From an uncultured Dysgonomonas sp. (lineage in GTDB: Bacteria; Bacteroidota; Bacteroidia; Bacteroidales; Dysgonomonadaceae), in assembly GCF_900079725.1 (NCBI RefSeq), contig NZ_LT599032.1, positions 2,796,692-2,860,691 of the forward strand: a stretch of 64,000 nt of DNA, read 5' to 3'. The notes under the pieces were generated by a model, which saw only the letters and a program-made list of their open reading frames with translations, was not told the origin of the DNA and ran no database searches. Both the position numbers and the translations under genes were made by a program. The first letter of the stretch is position 1; the number at the start of each line of letters is the position of its first letter. Positions 8,112-32,436 of the stretch are shown here, piece after piece.

Positions 8112-8618
8112 TTATTTATTTTTTCTATCAACCTCATCCATACGGTCATTTAATACTCTAACCAATTTATCCAGAAAGGTGGTACGGTTTATTCGGTTAC
8201 GCATTTCTTTAAAGGTTCCATAGTAATCTCCTAAATCTATATTGAAAACAACTTCTATATAAGCAACTATTTCTTTGATATTCAAACTTCCATGATTAAA
8301 GCAACCTGCTTTTCCCCAAGCATAGATAAGTTCAACCAGATCAATTTTGTTTGCAGTCCAAGTTATTCTTGTTTTAGGATATAAGAGTGGAGGATTTTCA
8401 ATTAAGTCCGAATTTAGAAGATTACTTCCCATATTATTATGATAAGAAAGCAAATCTTTCTTTGAATGGGAAAATTTATTTTCAGAAAAACATTTAAGGT
8501 TTTTGTTTGGTGTAGTAATTCGCCATTCAAGTACCTGCATACTCAGCCCAACCAAATACACTGCCTTCATTACAATCTTTAAAGCATTTTTTTCCCTTCT
8601 CACCGGATAATAATTCAC
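8112..8618 (-). pseudogene. RteC-like C-terminal domain, probably truncated or frameshifted
   Basis: The C-terminal ~110 residues match the RteC regulator family: WTANKIDLVELIYAWGKAGC, then NIDLGDYYGTFKEMRNR and a final FLDKLVRVLNDRMDE. RteC of CTnDOT activates the excision operon in that element. The family is about 220-280 aa, and the N-terminal half is not recognisable here. The upstream ORF in another frame (8527-8811) may be its displaced 5' part. It is a remnant of ICE regulation lying 12 kb from the Xis-like genes. Confidence 0.65.
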
Positions 8619-8811
8619 AAAATCCGGTAAGTTTTAAATGAACAAATCCAAGGCTATAATATAATTCCATATGGGTTGTTGCAAATTGGAGCCTGGTTAA
8701 TAGCTTTAAAGCGAATTCGTCACATGATTCTTCTAATTGTGAAATATATTGTTCTTCTTGTGAGGGTTTCGATAATAACCGAAATAACCTCGTTTGCATT
8801 AACTTCTGCAT
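8527..8811 (-). CDS. Unrecognised 94-aa protein overlapping the RteC-like remnant
   Basis: ATG at 8809-8811. Soluble, helical, with several Cys (CFKDC near the end). It overlaps the following ORF by 92 bp in a different frame. That arrangement suggests a frameshift that split one gene, although the sequence is not clearly RteC N-terminus. No function is proposed. Confidence 0.35.
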   Translation of the reverse strand: MQKLMQTRLFRLLSKPSQEEQYISQLEESCDEFALKLLTRLQFATTHMELYYSLGFVHLKLTGFCELLSGEKGKKCFKDCNEGSVFGWAEYAGT

Positions 8812-8930: not shown

Positions 8931-9299
8931 TTATTTCCCAATTCTTTTTATTATTTCCACAATATTAAAAAATAGAGTAATGATGCCGAAGCCAAAAAGG
9001 ATCAGCCATTGGGGTATTTGGAATAAATATTCCTCAAGTATTTGCAAAGTTGTTACAGTAGGCTTGAAAAGCAAGACACCTATTACAAATGTAAACCAGA
9101 ATATAAGGTTGATATATAAGTTTTTTATATATCTATTTGAATCAAATACAAGATATGCCATTAATAGAAAGGAGAAGGTCACTATTAAATTTTCTACTAA
9201 TACAAAGCTATATATCCCTCTACTGTCCTCTATATGTATCTCGAATAAGAGGTGCATGAACGCACATAGAATATTGATGATAATTAATAATATTGTCAT
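8931..9299 (-). CDS. Small four-helix membrane protein, last gene of the AfsA operon
   Basis: 122 aa with four hydrophobic segments at about residues 2-20, 30-50, 59-80 and 95-115. It starts 10 bp after the FabH-like stop. No family was recognised. As the terminal gene of the nine-gene operon it may take part in lipid or signal handling at the inner membrane, but only position supports this. Confidence 0.7.
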   Translation of the reverse strand: MTILLIIINILCAFMHLLFEIHIEDSRGIYSFVLVENLIVTFSFLLMAYLVFDSNRYIKNLYINLIFWFTFVIGVLLFKPTVTTLQILEEYLFQIPQWLILFGFGIITLFFNIVEIIKRIGK

Positions 9300-9309
9300 T
9301 TTATTGGTT

Positions 9310-10284
9310 TCAATATGACCATTTTAAATAGATGCTTCCCCATGTAAACCCTGCTCCGAATGCGGACAAAATTAGATTATCTCCTTTCTTTAATTTCGAT
9401 TCCCATTCATATAAACACAGGGGTATTGTACCTGCACTTGTATTTCCATATTTATGAATATTTACCATTACTTTTTCCGGTTTTAGTCCCATTCTGTTAC
9501 CGACAGCTTCTATTATACGGATATTAGCCTGATGAGGAACCAGCCAATTGATATCTTCGTTTACAAGATTGTTACGCTTCATTATTTGAGTTGACACATC
9601 TGCCATTCGAGACACAGCATGTTTAAATACAATTCTTCCTTCCTGATATACATAGTGCATTTTGTTTTCAATTGTATTATGGGATGCAGGATAAATAGAG
9701 CCGCCTCCTTTCATATTTAAATGTGATGTACCGACGCCATCCACATGTAAGAGAGAGTCTATGATTCCCGTATCATCAAGAGTCGGTTCCAATAATACTA
9801 CTCCCACAGCATCGCCGAACAACGGACATGTAGTACGATCTTCGTAATTGGTAATTGCTGTCATTTTATCTCCGGCAACAACTATAACTTTATTTTTTCC
9901 TGCTTTTATAAAATTAGAACCTAATTCCAATGCATATATGAATCCGGCACAAGCAGCCTGTATATCAAATCCCAAAGCGTTTTTTATATTACATTCTCGG
10001 GCCGTAATAGATGCTGTTGATGGAAATACATAATCAGGGGTTGTTGTCGCAAATATTAATGCTTCGATTTCATCCGGGTTTGTATTTGTTTTTACCAGAA
10101 GTTCTTTTACGGCTTTCACCCCCATATACGAAGTGCCTTTTTCTTTCAGTACTCTGCGTTCTTTAATGCCTACTCTGGTTGTAATCCAATCATCATTTGT
10201 ATCAACCAATTCGGACAAATACTCATTTGTAATAATATCATCAGGATAGTAAGCTCCAATTCCTTTTATTGCTGCTCTTCTCAT
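9310..10284 (-). CDS. FabH-type 3-oxoacyl-ACP synthase III (KAS III)
   Basis: 324 aa from ATG at 10282-10284. This start is preferred to one 57 bp upstream because it clears the preceding gene and matches the family start [15 protein letters not shown]. The catalytic triad is intact: Cys112 in QAACAGF, His251 in VPHQAN, Asn281 in YGNTSAG. KAS III enzymes condense an acyl-CoA with malonyl-ACP. A copy inside a specialised operon rather than a fab cluster suggests it makes the beta-ketoacyl precursor for the operon's product, which is the substrate class used by AfsA in Streptomyces. Spacing of 10 bp on both sides indicates cotranscription. Confidence 0.88.
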
Positions 10285-10294
10285 TGTTAAATAA

Positions 10295-11188
10295 TTAAAG
10301 TGATCTAATATTTTTTCTATAATTTTTAAGTTTCGTCTCATCTACTTTATCAATTATGGTAGAAAGCTCTTTTATCAACCTATCCTTGTCCGTCGGCAAG
10401 AACCCTGTCATTGGTAGAGGGTTAGAAACTGTATTTGCAAAAAAATTGGTGTTTATATTCAAACTTTTAATGAAAGTACGTAATTCCTTGAGCCTTTCAT
10501 GTTCGGTAGCTTCTTTAAAGAATCCTTGTTCAATGTCATTTTGTAACGGAGTATCAGGAAACACGGTCAATGAAACTACCGAAACTATATAAGGATTTAA
10601 CTTATTGAACATATCCGAGGTTGCCAACGCATTTCTCTCTCCATTACCATGCCCTGCTAATCCTGTAAGATAAGATACGTAGTACTCTATTCCGGCTTCT
10701 TCAAATTTTTTCAGATTCTCAATTGTTTGGGCTGCCGATGTTTTTTTATTCATGTATGATAATGTTATATCATCTCCCGATTCGGTTCCAACTGTAATTC
10801 CGTTGAATCCTAAATGACGTAGGTTTTTCAATTCTTCCACACTCTTTTTAGTTATATCTGTAACCCGTGCAAACATACCTATGCTTTTGCATTCAGGAAG
10901 ATATTTACGTATCATAATTCCTATATCCAAAAGCCTGTCATAACTCATTACAAACGGATTTGCTCCGACTAAGAATAGTCGCCGGGCTTTGGGTTGATAA
11001 TGTTGAATGATTTTTAAATCATGTTCAAACTCATCTTTGGGCGACATCTTAAATTTTATATCCGGATATAAACTACAGAATTTACAATTGTGGTGACTGC
11101 AACTTATTGTTGCCTGAATCAGAGCGGAATTTGCTTCATAGGGAGGACGCCATATGGTTCCTGTGAAGTGCATATCATGTACATCCAT
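10295..11188 (-). CDS. Radical SAM protein
   Basis: 297 aa. Near the N-terminus is [16 protein letters not shown], giving Cys30, Cys35 and Cys38 (CX4CX2C spacing), followed by [10 protein letters not shown]. This arrangement occurs in a subset of uncharacterised radical SAM enzymes binding a 4Fe-4S cluster and S-adenosylmethionine. GTESGDD near residue 137 fits the SAM-binding barrel. The enzyme is likely to modify the product of the AfsA/FabH operon, since it lies 11 bp from the TolC-like gene and 10 bp before fabH. The substrate is unknown. Confidence 0.82.
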
Positions 11189-11199
11189 ATTTTTATTTT

Positions 11200-12468
11200 T
11201 TATTGACCTGTAATTTTTTTATAATGAGATAACTTTATTAAATATCTGGTATGCCTATCAACCAATGTGTCTTTTGCCTTTTGCAAAAGTGTTTGAGCAT
11301 CTAATAAATCATTCAGGGTAATAAGTCCTGATTTATAATAGTTGTTATTGAGTCTTAGATTCTCTGAAGCGTTTTTTACAGAACTCTCTGCTATTTGTAT
11401 TTGCTGATAGGCTACTTCCAGTTCTTTATAATAGTTTTTCATCTGGACTATTATTTTTTCTCCAGCATCAATTTTATTGTATTCGGATATTTTTTCATTT
11501 ATCTTTTTTTGTCTGACCGAATGGGTTCCTCCCCACCAACCAGATATGGGTATGGAAACCGAAACAAAAGCCATTCCAACAGTATGTTTTCTGTCTACCA
11601 TATTTTCAAAAAAATAGTTGGCTCCGACTGCTACCGTTGGTAATAATTTCCCTTTTTCAATTTGGGTTTGATATTTGGATACTTCTATACCTTTATCTAG
11701 TAGATTATATGTCTTATTAGCATGCAAAGCGGCATCGGAATTAACAGAAAAAGCGTTTGGATGAATTGCATTTTCAAATGCCACCTCTGTAATTTCTATG
11801 CTGTCTGATATTATTCCTATATGTTGAGATAATAACATTTTAACAGCATCTATATTATTGTAGAGTTCCATTTTACTCGCTTTTACTTCGTCCAGTTTTA
11901 ATTGAACTTGCAATTCATTGTTGTGGGTTATTAAACCTGCCTTTACTGAAGCACTTACTTCTTTGAGGGTTTGACCGACTAGTTCTTCGATGACTTCGAG
12001 AGTTTTTAGTTTTTCTTTAAGTTGTATATATTGCCAATAATATTGTTCGGTGAGCAGTTCTACTTCATCTGCAACAATCTCCGATTGATTTTTCTGAATA
12101 TCAACTAGTTTATCTGCTAGCTTATTGCCATTCATTATTTGCCCACCTGCGAAAATAGGTTGTGTCACACTGATTCCTCCATAAAAACCCTCTCTAATAA
12201 GAGATAAATCCATACCCATTATGCTTGTTTCCAATAAACCGGAATTAGACTTTAATCCGATTCCGTTTGCTTGAACCGAAGGGAAATATTTTGTAAAAGC
12301 ATTCTTTTTCCCATGTTGAGCCTCTTGTATGCTCAATACCGATTTTTTCATCTCATAATTGTTTTGTTTTGCCAACTCCTTACATTCTTCTAGTGTTAGC
12401 TTTTGTTGAGAAAAGCAATCATGGGTACTGACCAACACTAAAATATATATCAGAAAAAATATTTTCAT
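11200..12468 (-). CDS. TolC-family outer membrane efflux channel (AfsA operon)
   Basis: 422 aa with a signal peptide ending CFSQQ and the duplicated long-helix pattern of outer membrane efflux proteins. It starts 7 bp after the RND permease stop and completes the exporter encoded within this operon. With the adaptor and permease it should form a channel from the inner membrane to the outside, presumably exporting the operon's small-molecule product. Confidence 0.9.
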   Translation of the reverse strand: MKIFFLIYILVLVSTHDCFSQQKLTLEECKELAKQNNYEMKKSVLSIQEAQHGKKNAFTKYFPSVQANGIGLKSNSGLLETSIMGMDLSLIREGFYGGISVTQPIFAGGQIMNGNKLADKLVDIQKNQSEIVADEVELLTEQYYWQYIQLKEKLKTLEVIEELVGQTLKEVSASVKAGLITHNNELQVQLKLDEVKASKMELYNNIDAVKMLLSQHIGIISDSIEITEVAFENAIHPNAFSVNSDAALHANKTYNLLDKGIEVSKYQTQIEKGKLLPTVAVGANYFFENMVDRKHTVGMAFVSVSIPISGWWGGTHSVRQKKINEKISEYNKIDAGEKIIVQMKNYYKELEVAYQQIQIAESSVKNASENLRLNNNYYKSGLITLNDLLDAQTLLQKAKDTLVDRHTRYLIKLSHYKKITGQ

Positions 12469-12475
12469 CTCAATA

Positions 12476-15400
12476 CTATTTATTTAGTTCTTTATCCTTG
12501 AATTTGAATATTACAGAATATGCTACGGGTAGTATTGTTGAAATAAATACCATAGTTATTAATGTCCCGAAAAAGATAACCGAACCTAGCGGTGTCCACA
12601 ATGGACTACCGCCGATAACCATAGGTATAACCCCAACGGCTGCGGCTGTAGATGTAAGAAAGATCGGGCGCATTCTACGGCTTCCTGCCTGAATAGCAGA
12701 TTTCTCGACTGTTAATCCTTGCTCTTTTCTGAGAACTTCTGCATAATCGAGCATGATGATACCATTTCGCAATAGAATACCCATTAAACTTACGACTCCC
12801 AATATAGAGGTAACACTGATATCGGAACCCATTATTTGCATACCAATACTTGTCCCTAATAAGCATAACATTGTGGAACCTAGTGTGAGTAAGGCTAAGG
12901 CTATTTTCTTGAAATGGAAGATTAGAATAAATAGCATCAAACAAACCGTAATTAATAAACCATTTACGATTTGGGGCAGTCTTTCTCCGTCAGCTTCTTT
13001 CATACCACCGTAACTTACTTTTATTCCTTCGGGTAATTCAATTTCATCTATTTTGTTTTTTATTTTATTTGTTATGTTTATTTCATTATACCCTCTTTCC
13101 ACTTCGGCTAATATTGACAATGTGCGGACACCGTTTCTTCTTACTATTTGTCCTTCATTCCAGTCGGGAGAGATAGATGCAATTTGTCTTAATGGAATGT
13201 TTGACATGCCACCCATCGTAGGTATATTGACATTACCGATATTTGAAAATGATTCTTCCTGTTTTCTTTCTGATTTTAGTATTACTTTTACAGGATAATC
13301 TTTCTCCCAAATATTCGTAATAGGAAATCCATCTCCCAATTCCAAGGCGGTACTCATTGCAATAATTGATTTGTCGATGCCCAGTTTATTCGTTTCGTTC
13401 TGATTTAGCCTAATTGAAACTCCCGGTAAATTTTCTTCAAAATTGGTTCTTATAAGTAATAACTCCGGCATCTTTTTCATTTCTGCCATAAGTGTTTCGC
13501 TTGCTTGTTTTATTGTGAGAATATCTTCTCCGCTTACTCTGATTTCGACAGGATATCGGGCTTCCGAAAAATCCATCTGCTTAAACTTTATATACGCTTC
13601 AGGAAAATAATCAGAGTATTTACGGCTATATTCATCAAGAATCTCTTTTGTTGCTTTTTTATCAGAAGTATTAACTATAAATTGCGCAAAATTATCCGAC
13701 GGGAATTGTGGCACATAAGTATCATGGAACCTCGGAGAGCTTAAACCTACAAAAGAGGTAACTGATACAACGCGACCATCTTTTCTAAGAATATTATCCA
13801 AACTGTCTGCTATCTCTGTTGTTTGATATATTGATTTTCCATTGGGTAGAAATATTTCTACTGCAAATTGATCTCTTTCAACAAATGGCATTAATCGCAG
13901 CGGTAAATTGAAAAACCAAAACGCACCAATAGCAATGATTAGCACTCCGGTCAATAAAGTCGCGTTCTTATATTTAAAGCATTTGGATAAAAGAAGATCA
14001 TAGCCTACCTGAACAATATCTAAGAAATTTTTTCCTTTTTTCTTTTCCCGATGCAACCCTTTTTTTATAAAAGTGTATTGCATAAATGGAGTGAATAAAA
14101 GAGCTATTAGCAGAGAGAAGCCTAATATAATAGTCATTGCCCACGGATATGTTATAAGAAAATCATTAAACATACCCTTGGTTGTTAAAAGAAAAGGAAA
14201 GAATGTTACACTTATAACTAAAGTTGCCGTCAGAACTGATTTAAAATACTTTCGAGGACTTTGAGCGGTGGCTATAATAGGTTTCTCACCTTCATCCAAC
14301 TTTTCAACATAATTATCAATAATTACGATGGAATCATCGACCACCATTCCTAATGTCACTATTAATGCCGAGAGAATAATAGTATTCAGTTCGATGCCAA
14401 AAGCATAAAACATGGCTAATGCACTGAAAATAGTTATAGGGATTGTTATAGCCGATACTAAAGCTACCCGCATAGGCATAAATGCTATTACGACAATTAC
14501 AACTGCAATTACAGCAATCAACATTTCCAATAAAAATGAATTCACCGAATTATCTACTACTTTGGATAAATCGGCTATTGAATAAAGTTTTACATCTTTA
14601 GGAATATCATGTCGAAAATCATCAAGTATTTCATTAACTTGTTTTCCTTTTTCTACAACATTGACCCCTTTCCTCATTTCTATGGAAAGAAGGATGCATT
14701 TAACCCCATTGTTTTGAATGTAAGGTTCGGAGTCCGGATATTCTCTTGTTATTTCTGCAATATCTTTCAGCCGGACAATATTTCCCGACAGATCTGAATA
14801 AATAATCTGTTCTGCTACATCCTTTTCCCAATTTAGTTCACTTTCAATATGAATGGGAGCAACTAAATGAGAATTTTTGACTTCCCCACTATAAGTTTTA
14901 TATCCTTGTGTCTGTAATTTTGCAATAATCATAGCATTATTAATGCCATAATTTTTTAATTTATCTTGATCAACTCTGATAACGATTTGTTCAGATAACA
15001 ATCCAACGTTTTTTAACCCAGAAACACCATCTACTTTGCGTAATTTATCTTTCAAGGCATCTGAATATTCCTGTAATTCACGATAGGTCTTATCTTCTGA
15101 TTCAATGGTAATCAGAATAGCAGATGTTTCTCCAAAATCATCAAGGGCTTTCAACGCAACTACTCCATCAGGCAAGTTGCTTTTCAGGTCTTCTAGATTG
15201 TGCTTGAATTTGGACCAAAAGGCATCTTTGTCTTTTATATTTTCATTGAGTTCAATATTAATAATTGAAACCCCGTCCTTGCTTTGTGAAAATGTTTTTT
15301 CCTTATTAATTTCCTTATATTCAAATATGAAATTTTCCAGTGGCTTTGTGAGCTGCTCTTCTATTTCGCTTGAAGTTAATCCCGGATAGGCAGCAACGAC

Positions 15401-15550
15401 CAATCCTTGTCGTATTGTGAAGGTCGGAAAATCCTGTTTAGGGGCTACATATAACCCATAGACACCCACCGCTACGAATACAATAACAATCAAAATTACA
15501 ATTCTGTAATATTTTAGGGCTAAATCAATTATATTGCTACCTTTTTTCAT
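12476..15550 (-). CDS. RND efflux permease (AfsA operon)
   Basis: 1,024 aa, full length for the AcrB/MexB superfamily, with twelve expected transmembrane helices and two large periplasmic loops. GMVVDDSIVIIDNY near residue 405 carries the acidic pair of the proton pathway. Its ATG overlaps the adaptor stop by 4 bp (15547-15550), so the two are translationally coupled. It is a second, distinct RND system from the one at 1-5 kb. Its place between tailoring enzymes argues for export of a specific product rather than general drug efflux. Confidence 0.93.
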   Translation of the reverse strand: MKKGSNIIDLALKYYRIVILIVIVFVAVGVYGLYVAPKQDFPTFTIRQGLVVAAYPGLTSSEIEEQLTKPLENFIFEYKEINKEKTFSQSKDGVSIINIELNENIKDKDAFWSKFKHNLEDLKSNLPDGVVALKALDDFGETSAILITIESEDKTYRELQEYSDALKDKLRKVDGVSGLKNVGLLSEQIVIRVDQDKLKNYGINNAMIIAKLQTQGYKTYSGEVKNSHLVAPIHIESELNWEKDVAEQIIYSDLSGNIVRLKDIAEITREYPDSEPYIQNNGVKCILLSIEMRKGVNVVEKGKQVNEILDDFRHDIPKDVKLYSIADLSKVVDNSVNSFLLEMLIAVIAVVIVVIAFMPMRVALVSAITIPITIFSALAMFYAFGIELNTIILSALIVTLGMVVDDSIVIIDNYVEKLDEGEKPIIATAQSPRKYFKSVLTATLVISVTFFPFLLTTKGMFNDFLITYPWAMTIILGFSLLIALLFTPFMQYTFIKKGLHREKKKGKNFLDIVQVGYDLLLSKCFKYKNATLLTGVLIIAIGAFWFFNLPLRLMPFVERDQFAVEIFLPNGKSIYQTTEIADSLDNILRKDGRVVSVTSFVGLSSPRFHDTYVPQFPSDNFAQFIVNTSDKKATKEILDEYSRKYSDYFPEAYIKFKQMDFSEARYPVEIRVSGEDILTIKQASETLMAEMKKMPELLLIRTNFEENLPGVSIRLNQNETNKLGIDKSIIAMSTALELGDGFPITNIWEKDYPVKVILKSERKQEESFSNIGNVNIPTMGGMSNIPLRQIASISPDWNEGQIVRRNGVRTLSILAEVERGYNEINITNKIKNKIDEIELPEGIKVSYGGMKEADGERLPQIVNGLLITVCLMLFILIFHFKKIALALLTLGSTMLCLLGTSIGMQIMGSDISVTSILGVVSLMGILLRNGIIMLDYAEVLRKEQGLTVEKSAIQAGSRRMRPIFLTSTAAAVGVIPMVIGGSPLWTPLGSVIFFGTLITMVFISTILPVAYSVIFKFKDKELNK

Positions 15551-16581
15551 CTTATTTTTACTTTCATTCCTGCACTAACCTTTTGATTACCATTTATGAT
15601 AATTAGATCACCATTACATAGTCCTTCTTTAATAATTACTCCCTTATCTGATAATTTGTCTATTATGACAGATTGTTTGTAGGCAATATCATTCTCTACT
15701 TTCCATACAAATCTATTATTATCGTTATCTATCATTATGGAATTGTTGGGGATGATTATTTCCTCATCTTCATTTTTATCATACATAATTGTAACATCGC
15801 AAATCATTCCCGGCATGAACGTCCCTGTTTCATTATCTAATTCAATTTTAATGTCGTATGTATGTGATAAGGGATTCGCCATTGAACTTTTTTCCGTGAT
15901 AAAAGCTGTATATTCTGCATTTTCGTCAAGAGCCATTATTTTTATTATAGCTTTTTGACCGATACTGATCTGTGATACTTCTTTTTCTGGAATCGCAACT
16001 TTTATCTTTATTTTTTCCAATTTAACCAAGTTAAAAACTGGCACACCGGGCATTACATTGGCACCGACTTCTGTTATTTTCTTAGCTACTACACCGCTAA
16101 ATGGTGCGTATAGATTGCAATTGTCCAAATTATTTTTGGCTATATTCACCATTGATTTTGCATTTTGTAAAGCCGTTTGTGTTTCGATCCATTTTATTTC
16201 GGGAAGGCTGTTATCATCATATAATATTTTTAGCCGATTGTATGCATCTTCCGCTTGTTTATATGTGGAAAGAGCCATATCGTAGCTATTTTGATGAACA
16301 ACTTTATCAAGGTTTGCCAAGAGTGTACCCTTTTTTACATGCTGATTTTCACCACAATAAATTTGTTGTATATTTCCGGTAACTTGAAAGCTAATCATAG
16401 ATGAATATGATTCTTCAATAATACCAGAATAATTATAGATAGGTGAATTGAGAACAGGCTTTATTGATATAATATCAACTGGTACACTTTCATCGTTTCT
16501 GTTTACTTCTTTTTTGCAATTCACTGCTGTAAGTAGTATGAATATCATGGTGATAATTAATATAATATATCTATTTTTCAT
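15547..16581 (-). CDS. RND periplasmic adaptor lipoprotein (AfsA operon)
   Basis: 344 aa. Lipobox LTAVNC after a hydrophobic N-terminus. The hairpin and lipoyl-like halves are visible, with LYAPFSGVVAKKI as the second half motif. It precedes the RND permease with a 4-bp overlap and follows the reductase/epimerase by 34 bp. Confidence 0.92.
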   Translation of the reverse strand: MKNRYIILIITMIFILLTAVNCKKEVNRNDESVPVDIISIKPVLNSPIYNYSGIIEESYSSMISFQVTGNIQQIYCGENQHVKKGTLLANLDKVVHQNSYDMALSTYKQAEDAYNRLKILYDDNSLPEIKWIETQTALQNAKSMVNIAKNNLDNCNLYAPFSGVVAKKITEVGANVMPGVPVFNLVKLEKIKIKVAIPEKEVSQISIGQKAIIKIMALDENAEYTAFITEKSSMANPLSHTYDIKIELDNETGTFMPGMICDVTIMYDKNEDEEIIIPNNSIMIDNDNNRFVWKVENDIAYKQSVIIDKLSDKGVIIKEGLCNGDLIIINGNQKVSAGMKVKIR

Positions 16582-16615
16582 ATTTTTAGCGATGTATTAA
16601 ACTGCTAATTTAACT

Positions 16616-17605
16616 TTACAATGTTATCATTTTCGATTCTTCGGATTTGCTTTCTGTTTTGTAAGCAGACAAAACTTTCTCTATTCCTTCTTCCATATCA
16701 ACCTTAGCTTCCCATCCTAAATTATTCGTTTTCTGTTCTTCCGATAGTTTATAATTTATAGACAGAACATCTACCATTCGTATTGACAGACTGGGACTCT
16801 TCTTAATTCTGAAAAAAGAATACAGCATTTGGAGAATGACAGCTTTAGTCATCAATGTTCGTTTTGAGTATTTCTTCTCTGGTGGATTATTGTTTGTTTT
16901 TTGTGCAATGAGGTTTATAAAATCGTGAATGCCTTTTTCGCTATCCTTAATACCAAAATATTTTTTGCCTACGGACTTTTCATTGTATATTGCCCGGATA
17001 AATAAGTCGCATAAATCATCAATGTAGCTCAATGGAGCATGTTTTTCTCCACCGGTAACAAAGAATAAACTATTATTATTCAAATTTTCGATAATTGTCG
17101 GAATAAATACATTATTCCCCGTTCCGTAAATCATACCGGGTACAATCGTAGTTGCTTTTATATTTGACATAAAGGAATCAACAATTCGGTCGGCAGCTAA
17201 CTTACTTTTGGCATAATCAGTAAATTGCATTTTACAAACTCCTTTAATCCGGTATGCTGCAATTGAAGAACAGTTTATTAACCGACATTTACCATTATTA
17301 TTCAAAATTGCTTTGCAGAGATTTTCGGTGCCCACAACATTAGATAAAATATAATTCTTTTTTGTTGTTCTTGAAACTTGCGCCGCCAGATGAACAATCA
17401 CATCACTCTCTTTCACAAACTCGACGAGGGAATTAATATCTGATAACTCACCATATACTAATTTTACCGCTTCGGGTAATTTGCTTATATTACTACTTTT
17501 ACGAACAAGGCACGTGACAGAATCATTGTTTTTTAATAGCATTTCAATTAACCTACCTCCTAAAAATCCTGTCCCCCCCGTTATTCCAATTCTAAGATTT
17601 TTCAT
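16616..17605 (-). CDS. NAD(P)-dependent epimerase/reductase (extended SDR, 3-beta-HSD-like)
   Basis: 329 aa. The Rossmann motif GITGGTGFLGG spans residues 7-17. The catalytic signature has Ser113/Ser114 in NCSSIAAY and Tyr131-AKS-Lys135. Extended SDRs of this kind reduce ketones or epimerise sugars. In Streptomyces, reduction of the AfsA product is performed by a dedicated reductase encoded nearby, so a similar step is plausible here. It is 22 bp downstream of the IspH-like gene. Confidence 0.85.
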   Translation of the reverse strand: MKNLRIGITGGTGFLGGRLIEMLLKNNDSVTCLVRKSSNISKLPEAVKLVYGELSDINSLVEFVKESDVIVHLAAQVSRTTKKNYILSNVVGTENLCKAILNNNGKCRLINCSSIAAYRIKGVCKMQFTDYAKSKLAADRIVDSFMSNIKATTIVPGMIYGTGNNVFIPTIIENLNNNSLFFVTGGEKHAPLSYIDDLCDLFIRAIYNEKSVGKKYFGIKDSEKGIHDFINLIAQKTNNNPPEKKYSKRTLMTKAVILQMLYSFFRIKKSPSLSIRMVDVLSINYKLSEEQKTNNLGWEAKVDMEEGIEKVLSAYKTESKSEESKMITL

Positions 17606-17627
17606 TGTTTTTTATCTTGAGTGTAGT

Positions 17628-18587
17628 TTATTTACGCATTTTCTCCATTAAGAAAGTGTAGTATGAGTATATATACCCATGCCTTAAATATGCCAGGATA
17701 GGTTTTTCTGCCTGATTAGGTATTGGAGATTTTACCAGCAGGATTTTCTCATATTTGTGAGATTTCTGGAATTTCAAAAAATCCTGTAGACTCCCTATAT
17801 TAACAACTTCTAAACCTTTATCTCTTATTGTCTCTTCTAATGACATCAGTGATTTATTTGTAGAACCGGGTGAGCCGATCAATAGCGCATATTTTACTCG
17901 ATTAAGTTTTTCCTCCGGCATATTTGAGATCTCATCCAAAGGGCTGATTTTACCGTCTGCCCACATACATTGAGTATTAATCATAACATGCTCTTTATCC
18001 GGAAAAGATTCATTTATGAAATCAAATATCTGATTGGAATGTTTCTTTAAGAAAGTTACGTATGAAATAAACTTTATAGGTTTCCCATTCGACTGCTCTA
18101 AAATTCGTTCCTTATAATTCCCCATTTGTATTAATATCATATCTTCAGGGAAAAGCGATGCATAATTCTTTATGATGATATGATTTGGCTCGCATAATAG
18201 TACGTATTGATAAGTACCATCAATATTTTCAAATAATTTACGCAACTTTCGGACAAATGGACAGGGTTTATCTATTATTTTTATACCTCTATGCAACAAT
18301 GCTTTTTCTTCGTGAACAATAGAATCATATCCTGTATTTACTACAATAAAGTCGCTTCCTTTTGGTAAATCATTAAAAGTTTCAACAGCCGGTACTCCAA
18401 GCTTTTTAAACCATTTCAAATCGACACCGACTTTGCCGTTATCATTGCTAATCCAATCAATAATCATATATCTAGTCGGTTCATTGGGGCTTTTCGCAGA
18501 TCTGATCGCTTCTGGAAAAACTTTATTCATCACCTGACTCTCAAGCCATTTGCATCTTCCATCGTTCACAAGCTCTATTACTTCCAT
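17628..18587 (-). CDS. IspH/LytB-like iron-sulfur protein, divergent
   Basis: 319 aa. Features recalling 4-hydroxy-3-methylbut-2-enyl diphosphate reductase are a conserved-type cysteine in IIDKPCPFVRK (Cys109), a second in NTQCMWADGK (Cys207, matching the NxxC position) and an IGSPGSTNKS segment like the IspH phosphate-binding SxN motif. Cys12 (DGRCKW) could be the third cluster ligand. The HGV and HPE active-site motifs of true IspH are not seen. It is therefore probably a paralogue acting in this operon, perhaps on an allylic or enol substrate, rather than in isoprenoid synthesis. Confidence 0.7.
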   Translation of the reverse strand: MEVIELVNDGRCKWLESQVMNKVFPEAIRSAKSPNEPTRYMIIDWISNDNGKVGVDLKWFKKLGVPAVETFNDLPKGSDFIVVNTGYDSIVHEEKALLHRGIKIIDKPCPFVRKLRKLFENIDGTYQYVLLCEPNHIIIKNYASLFPEDMILIQMGNYKERILEQSNGKPIKFISYVTFLKKHSNQIFDFINESFPDKEHVMINTQCMWADGKISPLDEISNMPEEKLNRVKYALLIGSPGSTNKSLMSLEETIRDKGLEVVNIGSLQDFLKFQKSHKYEKILLVKSPIPNQAEKPILAYLRHGYIYSYYTFLMEKMRK

Positions 18588-18598
18588 ACTATTAAATT

Positions 18599-19261
18599 TT
18601 ACTTTTCAATACGACTAAATAACTTCTCATACCCTCTATTCAACATTTGAATATTGGTTGCTGGGATTTTCTCTAAACATGTATTTTTTACCATTTCAGT
18701 TCTACTGTTTAGTCGTACCCTTGTGTATATCTCTTTCTCCATAACAGAGGCGTTAACTTTTACATCTGCGCATAATATCTTATTTTGATATAAATAAAAA
18801 TGCATAAACCGTTCCTGCCTTGATTTTTTATTTTTAAGCATAATATCTTCCATTATCATAATAAGAGGTACATCCAATTCGATGAATTTTAATACATTTA
18901 AGTTTATATTATCCATTATGTTAGAATAGCCAACAGTAGGGACACTATGTATGGTATGGGCTACGGCGATTCCTGCTTGTCTGACAACCTCAATAGCCAT
19001 TATGAAGGGCAGATGATCCAATTCGTGATCAAAGCAAAACAAACAATCGTACTTAGGAAGTGCAATAGAATATAAATAGTGATGCGAATCGATAGTATCT
19101 AGACCTAGATATTCCTTTGGAACTGTTTTTATTTTCGATATTAAAACATAATCTTCATTCTTCTTATGAACATATTTACTATCTATTTTTTCGATAGTGT
19201 TTACATCAATCGTTTCTGTTACTTTATTAATAAAGTCATTCAAATCATAATGTTGCTTCAT
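18599..19261 (-). CDS. AfsA-family hotdog protein (gamma-butyrolactone synthase-like)
   Basis: 220 aa, first gene of the nine-gene operon. Residues 77-97 contain FDHELDHLP, then an Ile-Met-Ala-Ile stretch, then EVVRQAG, matching the DHxxDHxPGM...ExxRQ signature of AfsA/ScbA/BarX proteins. The Gly-Met of that signature is replaced by Phe-Ile. AfsA joins a beta-ketoacyl chain to dihydroxyacetone phosphate, the first step in A-factor synthesis in Streptomyces. Full AfsA proteins carry two hotdog halves (about 300 aa). This one is short, so it may be a single- or compact-domain relative. Its promoter overlaps a putative TetR operator. Confidence 0.75.
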   Translation of the reverse strand: MKQHYDLNDFINKVTETIDVNTIEKIDSKYVHKKNEDYVLISKIKTVPKEYLGLDTIDSHHYLYSIALPKYDCLFCFDHELDHLPFIMAIEVVRQAGIAVAHTIHSVPTVGYSNIMDNINLNVLKFIELDVPLIMIMEDIMLKNKKSRQERFMHFYLYQNKILCADVKVNASVMEKEIYTRVRLNSRTEMVKNTCLEKIPATNIQMLNRGYEKLFSRIEK

Positions 19262-19282
19262 ATCAGTTTGTTTTTTTTATTT

Positions 19283-19300
19283 ATAGTACGTATGGACTGT
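19283..19300. promoter_or_regulatory. Putative TetR operator, site 1 (at +1 of the AfsA operon)
   Basis: ATAGTACGTATGGACTGT has a partial dyad (AGTnnnTAnnnACT). It sits directly downstream of the leftward -7 box at 19302-19309 and 22 bp before the AfsA start codon, so a bound repressor would cover the transcription start. It is identical at 17 of 18 positions to site 2. Confidence 0.6.
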
Positions 19301-19301
19301 A

Positions 19302-19309
19302 CAAATGTA
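19302..19309 (-). promoter_or_regulatory. -7 box of the AfsA operon promoter
   Basis: On the minus strand the sequence is TACATTTG, matching TAnnTTTG. A TTGA element lies about 22 bp upstream as a possible -33 box. Confidence 0.55.
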
Positions 19310-19523
19310 TTTATTTGATTTTAATAATCAATGCTATTTATTATGTTTTTTTGATGTTTTACGTTTAATATTATATATAAGACATTAGCCTTTATTGTAT
19401 TATTGTTTATTTATATTGTTTATTATGAGATATTTAATCGTATGTTAATTGTGTTTTATTTTATTGAATATACATATGATACTCTAAAGTAAATAATGAT
19501 AGCTTTAAATCATTTATTAAATA

Positions 19524-19541
19524 ATAGTACGTATAGACTGT
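19524..19541. promoter_or_regulatory. Putative TetR operator, site 2 (mid-region)
   Basis: ATAGTACGTATAGACTGT is in the same orientation as site 1, differing at one base, 241 bp away. It could allow looping or cooperative binding, or mark a duplicated control segment. Confidence 0.55.
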
Positions 19542-19696
19542 TTTTTATTTATATATATGATTTGTATTTAGTTCAAATAATTGAAATATTCAAAATGTAG
19601 ATGTTCATTATTTCATATTTGAATAATTAGTATATATGTATGTTTTTATAATATATACTATATAACTTATTACCAGAATAATATATATATTAAATA

Positions 19697-19714
19697 AACA
19701 GTATATACAGTATT
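19697..19714. promoter_or_regulatory. Putative TetR operator, site 3 (tetR promoter)
   Basis: AACAGTATATACAGTATT is related to the reverse complement of sites 1 and 2 through a shared ACAGTnnATAC core. It ends at the rightward -7 box at 19714-19721, so it would occupy the space between -33 and -7 of the tetR promoter. Confidence 0.5.
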
Positions 19715-19721
19715 ATATTTG
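19714..19721 (+). promoter_or_regulatory. -7 box of the tetR promoter
   Basis: TATATTTG matches TAnnTTTG and lies 72 bp before the ATG at 19793. Confidence 0.5.
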
Positions 19722-19792
19722 ATTTTTTTAATTTATATATATATATTTGTGAGTCAAAATTCGTATATATTGAATATTAACATTTTAACAAA

Positions 19793-20386
19793 ATGGATAC
19801 TAAAGACTTAGTATTTACTGAAGCATTTAAGCTATTTTCAAAAAAACCATATGATCAGGTTACATACACTGATTTGGAGAAAGCAACAGGTTTAAGTAGA
19901 GGTGCTATTTTGTATCATATAAAAAACAAGAAGAACCTATTTGGGATAGTGGTTAGCGAATTTATTCTAAAAAAAAGTTCCATTCCAGAACTATCTTTCG
20001 AGAATGGAGATAGTCTTAAAAATTTCATAGATCGATTTTTGGAAAATTCCAGATTGGAAAAGAAGTATTTAAAAAAAAGAGGTATAGAGAATATAAATTT
20101 ATCTATGCTAAATCTAAGTTCCCAGGCATTTTATTATTGTCCTGTAATGACAGAAAGATATTCGGAATGGATGAGAAGTCAATTGAGTACTTGGACGAAG
20201 ATTGTCAGAATTGCTATTGATAAAGGGGAGATACGTAATGATATGAGTGCTGATCTAATAGCCTCATTATTTCATAACGTTTATTTTGGGCTTGCTTATT
20301 CGGGTAGTGCACTCCCTAATGGATATGATTTGGAAGTGCTTGAAACAGAGTTCAAGACTATATACAGTTTCATATCTTGTAAATAA
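19793..20386 (+). CDS. TetR-family regulator, divergent from the AfsA operon
   Basis: 197 aa. An N-terminal TetR HTH (residues about 7-52) contains TYTDLEKATGLSRGAILYH and a conserved lysine-rich turn KNKKNLF, followed by an all-helical ligand domain. Gamma-butyrolactone receptors (ArpA, ScbR, BarA) are TetR proteins encoded beside afsA-type genes, so this is the natural candidate receptor. The ligand domain is not visibly closer to ArpA than to other TetR proteins, so this rests on context. Putative operators lie at both promoters, suggesting autorepression and repression of the operon. Confidence 0.85.
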   Translation: MDTKDLVFTEAFKLFSKKPYDQVTYTDLEKATGLSRGAILYHIKNKKNLFGIVVSEFILKKSSIPELSFENGDSLKNFIDRFLENSRLEKKYLKKRGIENINLSMLNLSSQAFYYCPVMTERYSEWMRSQLSTWTKIVRIAIDKGEIRNDMSADLIASLFHNVYFGLAYSGSALPNGYDLEVLETEFKTIYSFISCK

Positions 20387-20966: not shown

Positions 20967-21281
20967 ATGAAAGTAATAGTTATAGAATCGGAAGCCTATA
21001 AAAGACTAGTACGAAAAATCGACCGGATTCATTCTTTTATACAAAAACAAGAGAAAGAAAATACTATCATACAACAATCCGATCCATCAGAGGTGTGGCT
21101 AAGTGATCAAGATGCTGCTACCATATTGCGGGTAAGTAAACGCACCATGCAGCGGTTACGCAGTAACGGAGAAATAACTTATTCAATCAGGGGAGGAAAA
21201 GTGTGGTATATGTTGGCAGAGGTCAAACGTCTATTACCGGGACTTGTGGTAAACAAGGATAAGAAAGGAGGTAACCCATGA
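20967..21281 (+). CDS. Xis2c/Xis2d-like helix-turn-helix protein
   Basis: 104 aa. A coiled N-terminus is followed by a winged HTH of the excisionase/MerR-like type: WLSDQDAATILRVSKRTMQR, then RSNGEITYSIRGGKVWY. In CTnDOT-type elements two such proteins open the excision operon and act as recombination directionality factors. Its stop overlaps the next start by 4 bp. The role here is inferred from fold and position at the edge of the ICE. Confidence 0.75.
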   Translation: MKVIVIESEAYKRLVRKIDRIHSFIQKQEKENTIIQQSDPSEVWLSDQDAATILRVSKRTMQRLRSNGEITYSIRGGKVWYMLAEVKRLLPGLVVNKDKKGGNP

Positions 21282-21604
21282 GCAATGACGAAGGATTAAA
21301 AGATTTCATACAAAAGTGGTTCGAGCAATTCATGGGACGTTTTGACCGATTGGATAAATTTATGGATATCATGAGCGGACGCCATAACGTACTAAATGGT
21401 GAACGTCTTTTAGATAATCAAGACTTGTGCCAAATGCTGAACGTAAGCAAACGGACATTACAACGTTACCGTTCGGCAGGCGAACTGACCTACATAACTA
21501 TCCATCACAAGATATTTTACACAGAAAAAAACGTAGAGAAATTTATCCGCGATCATTTTAGAGATAACGATAACATAGCTGGAGTTATGGAAGAAAAAGA
21601 ATAA
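21278..21604 (+). CDS. Second Xis2c/Xis2d-like helix-turn-helix protein
   Basis: 108 aa with the same architecture as the preceding protein: LLDNQDLCQMLNVSKRTLQR then YRSAGELTYITIHHKIFY. ATG overlaps the upstream stop (ATGA-type coupling). It ends just before a strong stem-loop shared with the convergent methylase-helicase gene. Confidence 0.75.
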   Translation: MSNDEGLKDFIQKWFEQFMGRFDRLDKFMDIMSGRHNVLNGERLLDNQDLCQMLNVSKRTLQRYRSAGELTYITIHHKIFYTEKNVEKFIRDHFRDNDNIAGVMEEKE

Positions 21605-21609
21605 AATAC

Positions 21610-21632
21610 GACCGCAGAACTCTTCTGCGGTC
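21610..21632. terminator. Bidirectional stem-loop terminator
   Basis: GACCGCAGAA-CTC-TTCTGCGGTC, a 10-bp perfect stem between the convergent Xis-like (+) and methylase-helicase (-) genes. Confidence 0.75.
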
Positions 21633-21640
21633 ATCTTCAT

Positions 21641-24600
21641 TTAGAGCTTCAGACCTCTTTTTTCTTCTTTTGGAGGACTACTACCCACCGATGCAATAAC
21701 AAATCTATCTCCCATAACCTCTTTCACTCCTTGCAAAGTATTGGGCATAGGAGTATCTTGAACCACTGCCGATTTTGGGCTATTCTGAGATTGAGCCTGA
21801 TTCTTTTCTGAAGTGTTTTCTTGTCCTTCGCTTTGCTCAATAGGCTTTAATGATAACTCTATCTTACGTTCCAAAGCTGTGAGTTCCGTTTTTAAGTCCT
21901 TCAAATCATTCTCTTTCGACCATATGCTTTCCACTACCTGCCTGAGAACAGGTACGTCCAGCATCCGTTTATCGGTGTCTGTCTGGTACTTCTCCAAAAG
22001 TTTGGGCATACTGTCGAGTGCATTCAGAAAATTTAGCGAAGCAGTTTTAGGATCTGCCGCCAAACTCCCGTAATTATAGTTGTAGAGTATCTGTCCCTCT
22101 CCACGCACAAAAAAACGGTTTTGTACCAAATCATAGCCGTCTTTATTGGTAGTCTCTGATTTTACCAATAAATCAAATCCATATAACGAACCGATTTTCT
22201 CGTGAGCTCCATGTGTACGTGCTTTGTCCGATATTTCGTTCAACTTCTTTCCGATAGCAATCGGATCAGTAGCTTGAAAACCATCCAATTTTACAGGATT
22301 GAGCCGTGTCCCATCAGGAGCAATCTGTACCTTGCTATTGAAGGCTTCCACATCTTTGGAAATGCGATCAACATATCCTTTATTGGATTCTACGGTCTGC
22401 ATGATATTTTCTAATTTGTATCGGCTCGATGATTTTCCACGAACAAAAGCCTGCCTTTCACTTTCTAAAGCAGCTATCCTCTTTTCTATCCTTGCTTTTT
22501 CCAGCAATTCAGTATTCCCTGACAGGATAGCCACATATTCAGAAAAGTTCATACCGCTTTTCTCATCCAGACTGCCCTCGTCAATGGTTCGAGTACCCAA
22601 ATTATTGTTTTTAAGCTGTTTGATAAATAGCTGTTTGTTGTGTAGCAAACCAAATTTATATGCATCGAGTGATTTTTCCACGGCATAAATCTTCACATCT
22701 ACCTTATTATCAGCATACAGTTTCGCAATCTCATTGCCTTTGCGTATTGCCCGTCCGTCGCGCTGTTCCAGATCAGACGGACGCCACGGTGCGTCCAAAT
22801 GATGGATGGCTACTGCCCGTTTCTGAGCGTTCACGCCTGTCCCCAACATCTCGGTAGAGCCGAACATCACACGGATTTTTCCTTCGTTCATATCCTTGAT
22901 CATGGCTTTACGTGCTTTCTCGCTACCGGCTTCCTGAATAAATCTCACTTCGGATGCAGGGATGCCGTAATCCTCCACCAATTTGCGTTTTATCTCTGTA
23001 TAAGGGCTCCACTGTCCGGGCTTGTATGTACCCAAGTCCGAGAAAACGAACTGAGTACCCTTTTGAGCATCATATTTTTTGTAATAGTCAGCTATGGATG
23101 CCGCACAATGACTGGCTTTGTTGTCCACATGGTCGCCATATGTATCGGGGTCGATCATCCGCATATCAAGCGACATCTTACGGGCATAATCGGTCGCTAT
23201 CAGCATTTTTGCTTTTTCTTCCCGTTCCGAAAGTGGTTCTCGTCCCAAAAGAGTGGCATCGCCTGTTTTGGCGAACTCCATCAGTTTACCGATAAATTCC
23301 TGCTGGTCAGGTGTGGGTGGTATATTGTGTAGAATCTCATTTTTATCGGGACGGTCTATACCGATATCCTGTGCGGTACGGTAATCGGTAATTTCGGAAT
23401 AAAAAGAAGCCAGTTCCGGCACTTTGATAAAATAGCGGAAACGTTCTTTCTGCACAATCTGATTAGTTACCGAGAACTCGTAGTCTTTTGTTTTCTTGGC
23501 AAAGATAGCTGCCCAAGCGTCGAAAGTATTAATACCCTGCCTTTCCAGTTCTTTGGGACGCAGGTATTTGAATAACAGATATAGTTCTGTTAGTGAGTTG
23601 GATATTGTTGTTCCCGACGAATAAGTAGCTCCTAAGTCCTTACCTGTGCGTTCTTGTATGGTACGCAAAGCAAAAAGCATATTGAGTGCCCGTTGACTAC
23701 CTTCGGTATTTCCTAAGCCTGCTACACGGTCGTGTCGGGTGGTAAAAGTCAGGTTCTTAAATTTGTGAGATTCGTCTACGAACAAGTGGTCTATACCGAT
23801 CATCCGAAAATCAGACATATTGTCCTTACGGTTTTCGATCTGGTGAGCTATTCCTTCCAATTTAGTTTCGAGATTGGCTTTACGTTTCTCACAACCTTTC
23901 AGCATCCCTCTCGAAACCTCTTTGCCCTGCGAACGCAGCACATCGAGGTTTTCTTCTACACTATCAAGTTCAGCCTGTAAGATGCTTCGTTGTATCTCCG
24001 GAGATTGGGGTATCATCCCGAATTGCTCGTGTGTTAAAATCACCGCATCCCAATTGTTGTTTTTCATTTCGTTGAAAATACGATTGCGGTTCTGTGGTGT
24101 AAAATCCTCCTTACCCGGATAGAGTACCTTTGCATCAGGGTATGCCGTACAGAAGGTCTGTGCTATTTCGTGAACATTGGCTTTCAGACCTGTGATAAGG
24201 GGCTTATTCACCAATCCGAGCCGCTTCATTTCCATTGCACCACAACACATAATCAGCGTTTTACCGCCGCCCACCTCATGATCGATGATCCCGCCACCGT
24301 TCAATTTAAGCATCCAGATGGCATCTTTCTGGCTCTTGTATAAGTCGAGAATACCCAAACCTTTCAGGTCGAGTCCGGGAAAAGTTTGGTGTGATCCATC
24401 GTATTCGGGTCGTACAAAACAGTTGAACGTGCGGTTATAGAGGTCTGCAAGCCTGTCTTTAAATTCGGAAGTTTGTTCTCTGAGCCAGTCCGAAAAGCCG
24501 TTACGCATCTCATCTATCTTGGTATTGGCAAGCTGAATAGCTTCTCCATCACGAACCTTTGTTTCTTTGCCGTCTACCCGAATTGTTTTTGTAATATCGG

Positions 24601-27283: not shown

Positions 27284-27716
27284 TTTCGAGCAGGATTTGT
27301 ATTTCGCCTGTCAGTTCCGTGTAAAACTGATTGTACTGTGGTGTATCGGCAAAATCATCAGAGAAGGTGTATTTTTGAATCGTATCGGTAAGTCGAGACA
27401 ATAACTCTATGGCTATGCCTTCGGCCCCAGTCGGATTTACTTCTTTGAAAAATTCTTCCCAAAGGATAGTTACAAGAGTTCGGTAGGTAGAGAAATGCAA
27501 GCCTTCATATAAGACTTGCGAAGAGATGACTTCCGCTTCGTCGTGGGTATGACCTGATTTTATGGCTTGGCTATACGCCTCTGCTGCGGCATCACCGCGG
27601 GCAGCAATAAAGTCATAGTCGGTTGCTTTATCAGGATGGGTATCTTGTAAGTAGGATAATAGGGATAGCCGGAAATAGGATAATTCTACGGCTGATGTAT
27701 TTGATTTTGTTGCCAT
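27273..27716 (-). CDS. DUF1896 family protein
   Basis: 147 aa, soluble and acidic, with the family features [19 protein letters not shown] at the N-terminus and an internal [10 protein letters not shown]. It is usually found in Bacteroidetes ICEs between a topoisomerase and the methylase-helicase, as here. Function is unknown. It is preceded by a stem-loop plus CACTAAAAAATCAA leader element. Confidence 0.85.
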
Positions 27717-27718
27717 AT

Positions 27719-27749
27719 CATTGATTTTTTAGTGAGGGTCGAAGCCCCT
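27719..27749 (-). promoter_or_regulatory. ICE leader element (stem-loop + CACTAAAAAATCAA), DUF1896 copy
   Basis: On the minus strand, AGGGGCTTCGACCCT can fold as a small hairpin, then CACTAAAAAATCAATG leads directly into the ATG of the DUF1896 gene. Other copies precede topB, mobA, traE and traN. Confidence 0.6.
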
Positions 27750-27799
27750 TCTGTTATTGCTTTTGTAAGAATGAAACTTACAATCGGAAAAGAAAAAAA

Positions 27800-27849
27800 G
27801 CATCCGGAGCTTAGCCCCGGATGCCACCACTAAAAAATCAATGTTAAAC
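27800..27849 (+). promoter_or_regulatory. ICE leader element, orphan copy facing right
   Basis: GCATCCGG...CCGGATGC hairpin (27800-27824), then CACTAAAAAATCAATGTTAA (27828-27847) continuing AC. No ICE core gene follows. The next gene, 155 bp on, is the GNAT cargo gene. Confidence 0.55.
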
Positions 27850-28004
27850 GACTATTCCGAATCGTAAAACAAAGACCTTTCAGTGGCAAATATAGTGAAA
27901 TTATTATTTCAATGGTCGCTCCTTACTTGGTGTCGTTGCGTATCCGATCACTTATATTTAAATTTGTATGATTCATTGAATCGTAATATCAAACAGCAAT
28001 TGTC

Positions 28005-28655: not shown

Positions 28656-28657
28656 TT

Positions 28658-30766: not shown

Positions 30767-30768
30767 TT

Positions 30769-30790
30769 TAACGTTGATTTTTTAGTGGTG
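30769..30790 (-). promoter_or_regulatory. ICE leader element, topB copy
   Basis: On the minus strand CACCACTAAAAAATCAACGT ends 6 bp before the topB ATG. The hairpin seen in other copies is absent. Confidence 0.5.
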
Positions 30791-30802
30791 TTAATGATAA
30801 AA

Positions 30803-32353: not shown

Positions 32354-32436
32354 GATAAATGATTTTTTATTCTGCATTACTATTAATGCAGAGCGAAAAT
32401 ACATTTTACTAATGGACTGATTGCAAGGTTTTAAAC

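Follow-up and report, generated by a model that had tools for sequence, protein, structure and literature searches.

An operon pairing AfsA-like and IspH-like genes on a CTnDOT-type conjugative element of an uncultured Dysgonomonas

Among the closest described counterparts of the locus reported here are the AfsA/ScbA-ArpA/ScbR gamma-butyrolactone systems of Streptomyces, in which an AfsA domain, a short-chain dehydrogenase/reductase (SDR) and a TetR gene occur together; several Streptomyces plasmid loci likewise carry ScbA with ScbR and/or an SDR. In the Streptomyces route, a butenolide phosphate is dephosphorylated by a phosphatase. The same three components are found together in a 64,000-nucleotide stretch of an uncultured Dysgonomonas sp. 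(hereafter the window), which spans bases 2796692-2860691 of a genome assembled as one 5.22-Mb contig. Here, a minus-strand operon (19261-8931) encodes, in order, an AfsA-like protein, an IspH-like protein, an SDR, an HlyD-type adaptor, a resistance-nodulation-division (RND) permease, a TolC-type protein, a radical S-adenosylmethionine (SAM) protein, FabH and a membrane protein, and a TetR gene lies divergently upstream. In contrast to the Streptomyces systems, the locus has a single AfsA copy rather than a double one, its products miss the ScbA and ScbR cut-offs, and it adds the IspH-like and radical SAM proteins, a FabH and RND exporter of its own, and a setting within a Bacteroidota conjugative element. 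The operon probably directs the synthesis and export of a small lipid akin to the Streptomyces hormones, and it looks self-regulated.

AfsA domains have already been described from bacteria other than Actinobacteria (excerpts of PMC7426152, PMC12114271 and PMC7756420), and AfsA clusters in 12 phyla are attributed to Creamer et al. 2021 in the excerpt of PMC12114271. The afsA killing cluster of Ruegeria pomeroyi DSS-3 (PMC7426152, in excerpt) likewise resides on a mobile replicon, the megaplasmid of that strain, includes regulators and a transporter, and is driven by its own afsA; it differs in belonging to an alphaproteobacterium, and the excerpt mentions no IspH-like gene. In the afsA-HAD-MarR-efflux operon of Chromobacterium subtsugae (PMC12114271, in excerpt), AfsA likewise shares expression with a regulator and with the proteins of a tripartite efflux system, but a haloacid dehalogenase (HAD)-type protein stands in place of the IspH-like protein, MarR in place of TetR and a major facilitator superfamily (MFS) transporter in place of RND, under acyl-homoserine lactone (AHL) quorum-sensing control. 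The excerpts of these three papers describe no Bacteroidota system, and Creamer et al. 2021 may include a Bacteroidota or spirochaete case. Literature searches on AfsA, butyrolactone and IspH topics found no paper on the pairing of AfsA with an IspH-like protein.

The operon is real and unusual. An initial annotation of the window had read it as a complete AfsA-type signal circuit, which is plausible; it missed both the placement of the operon as mobile-element cargo and the IspH-like gene as the telling partner of AfsA, and this partnership is the new point.

The AfsA-like and IspH-like proteins

Families were assigned to proteins of the window with the Pfam curated cut-offs and the NCBIfam model cut-offs. 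The first gene of the operon (18599-19261, minus strand) encodes a hotdog protein of 220 aa, predicted to be a synthase coupling a beta-ketoacyl chain with a C3 unit. The AfsA domain family PF03756 matches it at 63.2 bits (cut-off 24) and is the sole Pfam family at E<=0.1. In an alignment with 13 relatives, H79, D82, H83, R94, Q95 and Q159 are invariant and E91 nearly so; the nearly invariant G86 position is F in the window protein, and F follows the DHxP motif both here and in its kin at locus L036 (a Tannerellaceae metagenome-assembled genome, MAG), where nearly all relatives have G. Four actinobacterial rows of the alignment have an extra N-terminal AfsA copy, which the 220-aa protein lacks.

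A structure model of middling quality (mean predicted local distance difference test score (pLDDT) 72.1; predicted template-modelling score (pTM) 0.68; residues 56-78 below 50) has four long strands with a helix at the centre. A Foldseek search of the PDB with this model ranked FabZ and thioesterases of the hotdog type highest (E 3e-6 to 8e-5; probability 1.00; TM-score, normalized by query length, 0.27-0.47). The modelled fold is that of a hotdog protein, and fold alone cannot separate AfsA from FabZ; the sequence can, since no other Pfam family matches the protein at E<=0.1 than AfsA. A sequence search of the PDB returned nothing at E<=1. An identity of FabZ or thioesterase was rejected, there being no such Pfam match, though the fold search was indecisive. 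Of the checks that the initial annotation had proposed for 18599-19261, the profile search gave AfsA and the structure prediction a hotdog fold; a better sequence match to FabZ, which it had named as refuting, was not found.

The second gene (17628-18587, minus strand) encodes an IspH/LytB-like iron-sulfur protein of 319 aa, predicted to remove an allylic oxygen or phosphate reductively. In common with IspH (LytB, 4-hydroxy-3-methylbut-2-enyl diphosphate reductase), it matches PF02401 (37.2 bits, cut-off 24.5) and has the three cysteines of the cluster and a histidine of the active site; C12, C109, C207 and H136 are invariant in an alignment of six family members. It differs from IspH in missing the equivalog model TIGR00216 (41.4 versus 187.9 bits) and in the positions of E. 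coli H41, H74 and E126, which we take to be the histidines and the glutamate of the diphosphate site. These positions are changed in six of six members relative to housekeeping IspH, a comparison with five usable rows (L089 and L093 were left out), three of which lack the first ~80 residues and two of which cover H41. Since the cluster cysteines are kept while these positions differ, the protein is a member of the LytB superfamily but not the isoprenoid enzyme, and an identity as housekeeping IspH was rejected on the changes at H41, H74 and E126. In PDB searches, the best rows were unrelated (a GEA2/ARF exchange factor at 0.003 and a designed protein at 0.0003), with true IspH second both for the protein (0.025) and for its profile (0.0022). 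In two spirochaetes a SnoaL-like domain was seen, fused to the IspH-like protein in L098 (9128-10477) and as a separate nearby protein in L097 (7703-8701).

Occurrence of the pair in other genomes

AfsA is rare around the window. With the Pfam model it was detected in one of 393 genomes of the same order and, with the protein as query, in one of 101 of the same family, in both cases the genome of the window itself. Across the phylum, 28 of 395 genomes were positive, namely this genome and 27 from one family; two of these (G543 and G616) match contigs assigned to Chlorobium sp. and Chlorobiaceae, so the GTDB phylum here includes Chlorobiota. The AfsA proteins of this Chlorobi-type family form a different set from that of the window. 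In both loci of that family that were examined (L003 and L026), as in a Rickettsiaceae MAG (L044), a flavin amine-oxidase-like gene, assigned by Pfam on L003 and L044, lies 3' of AfsA. For the IspH-like protein, a profile of six members matched nothing at E<=1e-15 in 295 Bacteroidia genomes except the gene of the window itself, and tblastn gave no match in 72,556 plasmid records.

Scans for close relatives with the AfsA protein alone found none on genome contigs or viral contigs, and an alignment scan of viral contigs also found none. An alignment scan over genomes of 84,980 species yielded 42 loci. When ten window proteins were used as queries (RND, HlyD, TolC and FabH matches below 60 bits being left out), only two of the 42, L036 and L043, matched anything beyond AfsA. 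In L036, AfsA, IspH-like and SDR genes follow the order of the window, each of the three broken, with piecewise identities of 47% (AfsA), 50-60% (IspH-like) and 35-60% (SDR); the locus is near a contig end and its upstream side is missing. In L043, a Spirochaetes MAG, the IspH-like gene adjoins AfsA divergently (28% identity, E 3e-35). The epimerase-type SDR of the window is common only to L036. The conserved unit would be AfsA-IspH-like-SDR alone, because FabH, radical SAM, exporter and TetR genes were found beside no relative. A lack of operon conservation across genomes, which the initial annotation had named as refuting, applies in part: the three-gene core recurs, but the remaining genes do not, and the linkage to TetR, radical SAM and FabH that it had proposed to survey was not found at these loci. 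An Omnitrophota MAG (L038, 1528-5654) has three consecutive genes, encoding an HAD hydrolase, an AfsA protein whose C-terminal part is long, and a 7TM histidine kinase.

Among 247 Spirochaetota genomes, an AfsA match was found in 14. A two-member IspH-like profile gave five matches at 231-546 bits in the same genomes and seven at 36-41 bits; five of the seven weak ones could be aligned and resemble housekeeping IspH. All five genomes with a strong match are among the 14 AfsA-positive ones (Fisher p 2.7e-7, kinship not corrected), and in three of them (L043, L095 and L096) the two genes are adjacent and divergent. Together with L036, the IspH-like gene adjoins AfsA in two phyla. Furthermore, the well-supported branches of the AfsA tree require the IspH-like label to switch at least twice (counted without seven rows that belong to no group), and AfsA lineages with an IspH-like partner stand in at least two places.

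Most of the nine AfsA loci without an IspH-like gene have another partner. One or two HAD-type genes lie beside AfsA in eight of these nine (L123-L130; L122 has none), while neither HAD family occurs in the fetched stretches of the five IspH-like genomes (8/9 versus 0/5, Fisher p 0.003), and 16 further neighbours from those five genomes gave no HAD match in Pfam. The assignment to HAD comes from Pfam for one protein (L124) and, for the other family, from a profile match to HAD structures (E 1.6e-5). HAD or phosphatase-like genes are assigned to the dephosphorylation step in the excerpts of PMC12114271 and PMC7756420. No HAD protein is found among the products of the window operon with Pfam or NCBIfam. 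This exchange of partners, placed beside the phosphatase step of the Streptomyces route, suggests that the IspH-like protein may carry out that step reductively, an iron-sulfur enzyme thereby replacing the phosphatase; this is our main inference, drawn from a correlation in 14 genomes. One of the more distant neighbours in L043 is an enzyme of the phosphoglycerate-mutase type.

Several observations weigh on the other side. In two of the five genomes, AfsA and its IspH-like counterpart lie on separate contigs, one AfsA being at a contig end. The HAD count is small, uncorrected for kinship and obtained with two HAD profiles built on those same loci, and in three of the eight HAD loci (L127-L129) H replaces the first motif-I aspartate, so that these proteins may not be phosphatases. 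Six of the 14 genomes have SDRs of the adh_short type next to AfsA or to the IspH-like gene; these SDRs (adh_short_C2) are of a different subfamily from the epimerase-type SDR of the window. Finally, the structure model of the IspH-like protein is poor (pLDDT 53).

A signalling protein adjoins AfsA in 13 of the 14 Spirochaetota genomes: a giant kinase in 11, a methyl-accepting chemotaxis protein (MCP) in one and a PAS-SpoIIE protein in one. The giant proteins, located in the AfsA gene clusters by blastp, combine protein kinase, AAA and GAF domains. Pfam was run on four of them, three from AfsA clusters (L043, L119 and L129) and one beside an IspH-like gene (L097); the C-terminus is a histidine-kinase module in L043 and SpoIIE in L119, L129 and L097. 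The MCP gene of L122 overlaps AfsA, and L130 has a PAS-SpoIIE-TPR protein. On the 8.3-kb contig of L118, no signalling protein was found beside AfsA. Overall, the clusters of L043, L095, L096, L119 and L122-L130 hold HAD or IspH-like genes, SDRs, and a giant kinase-AAA-GAF protein or MCP, and literature searches turned up no description of this AfsA-kinase gene cluster of Spirochaetota.

Control region and proposed pathway

The divergent TetR-family gene (19793-20386, plus strand; PF00440, TetR_N, 30 bits, cut-off 24) encodes the predicted repressor of the operon. It shares with the AfsA gene a 531-bp spacer that holds two copies of the 16-mer AGTACGTATRGACTGT, one immediately upstream of the AfsA start (19285-19300, plus strand) and one at 19526-19541 (plus strand). 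Both copies are exact, and no third exact copy exists genome-wide; at <=2 mismatches, the pattern occurs in four places in the genome and the reversed pattern in 13. None of 300 dinucleotide shuffles of the spacer yielded such a pair with >=6 G/C. A weaker similar stretch was noticed by eye near 19695. These counts support the view that the repeat is non-random and a candidate operator.

The remaining products of the operon are as follows. The third gene (16616-17605, minus strand) encodes an extended SDR of the NAD-dependent epimerase/dehydratase type (PF01370, Epimerase, 103 bits, cut-off 20.9; motifs GITGGTG and YAKSK), a predicted ketone or butenolide reductase. It is followed on the same strand by genes for an RND periplasmic adaptor (15547-16581; TIGR01730, 205.7 bits, cut-off 94.9; HlyD_D23, 70.5 bits), an RND permease of 1024 aa (12476-15550; PF00873, ACR_tran, 507.4 bits), a TolC-type outer-membrane factor (11200-12468; PF02321, OEP, 180.3 bits), a radical SAM protein of 297 aa (10295-11188; PF04055, 51.1 bits), FabH (KASIII; 9310-10284; NF006829, 375.2 bits, cut-off 249; ACP_syn_III_C, 112.9 bits) and a hydrophobic protein of 122 aa (8931-9299) that, by hydropathy, is probably a membrane protein and has no Pfam or NCBIfam family. 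The radical SAM protein has its cysteines at residue 30 spaced CX4CX2C, not the usual CX3CX2C. The Pfam matches agree with the gene identities and positions given in the initial annotation, and the FabH residues it reported as intact (C112, H251 and N281) are exact with the start at 10284, which is preferred over 10341.

From these parts the following route can be proposed. FabH, alone or with the fatty-acid synthase of the host, would supply a beta-ketoacyl chain, which the AfsA-like enzyme, as in its family, would couple to dihydroxyacetone phosphate, the product closing to a butenolide that bears a ring CH2-O-phosphate. The IspH-like protein would then cleave the allylic C-O bond reductively to leave a methyl instead of a hydroxymethyl group; reduction of either the side-chain ketone or the ring would fall to the SDR, the radical SAM protein may add a further change, and the RND pump would export the product. 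TetR would repress both directions through the spacer repeats and be released as the product builds up, giving a self-reinforcing switch. Our favored but tentative reading, held with somewhat less than even confidence, is that an AfsA-derived lipid of the butenolide type is made and exported by the operon and in turn controls it. If it is true, conjugation carries hormone-like AfsA chemistry into Gram-negative, gut-type Bacteroidota, an IspH-like enzyme takes on a reaction new to it, beyond isoprenoid synthesis, and a methyl in place of a hydroxymethyl group on the butenolide becomes a testable prediction.

The butenolide circuit has to be weighed against a number of unfavorable results. The AfsA-like protein misses the ScbA/BarX synthase model NF041195 (38.5 versus 200 bits), and the best NCBIfam model of the TetR protein, ScbR (NF041196), reaches 36.7 bits against a cut-off of 150, for which reason we rejected its identity as ScbR as proven. 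Exporter, radical SAM, FabH and TetR genes accompany none of the relatives among the 42 loci, weak exporter and FabH matches being left out. As for the repeat, its pattern was picked from the sites themselves, 33 of 100 spacer shuffles yield a pair of any composition, and at <=3 mismatches 13 of 100 window shuffles likewise give two matches. Moreover, product, ligand, signalling, binding at the spacer and enzyme activities are all inferred from sequence. The complete circuit claimed initially is supported in part: its genes are present and the shared spacer holds a repeat, but the ScbR and ScbA/BarX cut-offs are missed.

The regulator scores bear directly on a rival explanation, namely that the AfsA-like, IspH-like, SDR, radical SAM and FabH proteins build an antimicrobial or some other secreted lipid instead of a signal, with the RND pump protecting the producer and TetR acting as an ordinary efflux repressor that senses the compound. 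The runner-up models of the TetR protein, MtrR (32.1 bits) and AcrR (32.0 bits), almost equal ScbR and, since the ScbR score is far below its cut-off and near theirs, the protein may equally be a plain efflux repressor. A whole RND pump within the operon fits this explanation too; to our knowledge, free-diffusing butyrolactones need no RND pump. The published cases point both ways. According to the excerpts, an AfsA cluster is required for competitor killing in R. pomeroyi (PMC7426152), and an AfsA domain ends an antifungal polyketide in Burkholderia (PMC7756420), but transcription of the R. pomeroyi cluster itself also depends on afsA (PMC7426152). The signalling proteins beside 13 of 14 spirochaete AfsA genes also argue for a signal. 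We regard a non-signalling secreted lipid as a serious possibility, though less likely than not.

The SDR raises a different alternative, in which the AfsA-like and IspH-like proteins serve another lipid pathway, for example one with head-to-head condensed chains and OleA/OleD chemistry, that merely borrowed a hotdog protein. Its best NCBIfam model is indeed OleD (100.6 bits, below the cut-off of 580), a thiolase-fold enzyme is present, and F replaces G after the DHxP motif in the window AfsA and its L036 kin. However, the operon contains no OleB or OleC gene, FabH is a true KASIII match (375 bits, cut-off 249), and the other AfsA residues are conserved; we consider this pathway distinctly unlikely.

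Returning to the butenolide circuit, its most far-reaching form would be an altered A-factor pathway. Here the IspH-like enzyme would replace the phosphatase and reductively strip the CH2-O-phosphate oxygen from the ring to yield 3-methyl butenolides. This variant would have arisen or spread in Spirochaetota, where giant kinases would read it, and reached Bacteroidota on a conjugative element with a TetR sensor and RND exporter of its own. The whole of this scenario is rather doubtful; were it true, transferable DNA would bring a private chemical language along.

The conjugative element

The operon is the cargo of a CTnDOT-type conjugative element. We place it there because rteC, HTH_17, N6-methylase/helicase, topoisomerase, coupling protein and TraG/TraJ/TraM genes flank it. 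An rteC-like regulator on the minus strand is split over two overlapping reading frames (8112-8811; PF09357, 101 bits for 8112-8618). On the other side, Pfam identifies the element backbone (20967-32404), with two HTH_17 proteins, an N6-methylase/helicase, a topoisomerase and a DUF4099/DUF3945 protein, and the conjugation genes extend over 37513-59151 (coupling protein, an intron-cut TraG, TraJ and TraM). All four markers of the CTnDOT type (rteC, TraJ, TraM and TraG) are represented by their families (PF09357, PF07863, PF12508 and PF19044), rteC and TraG being broken. A comparison of the backbone with plasmids gave three short matches, which are uninformative. The G+C content is 34% in the operon, 32% in tetR, 16% in the spacer and 43% in the adjoining element backbone.

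The broken genes raise the question as to whether the operon is in decay, a passenger that serves no function in its host. The three broken genes of the L036 relative and the split rteC frame next door are in line with such decay, but all nine operon genes and the TetR gene are full-length, closely spaced open frames. Indeed, the gaps between the nine genes are, in order, 11, 22, 34, -4, 7, 11, 10 and 10 bp (with the FabH start at 10284), so that the operon is tight. The initial claim that one locus unites an AfsA-family protein with a reductase and an exporter, with TetR encoded divergently, is upheld. We think decay very improbable.

Three group II intron-type reverse transcriptase genes lie within the element (40570-42375, 49463-51214 and 52562-54244), and TraG is cut at one of them. 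Finally, a protein of 1244 aa with a YobI-like P-loop NTPase domain is encoded inside the backbone (33670-37404) and is perhaps a defence gene product.

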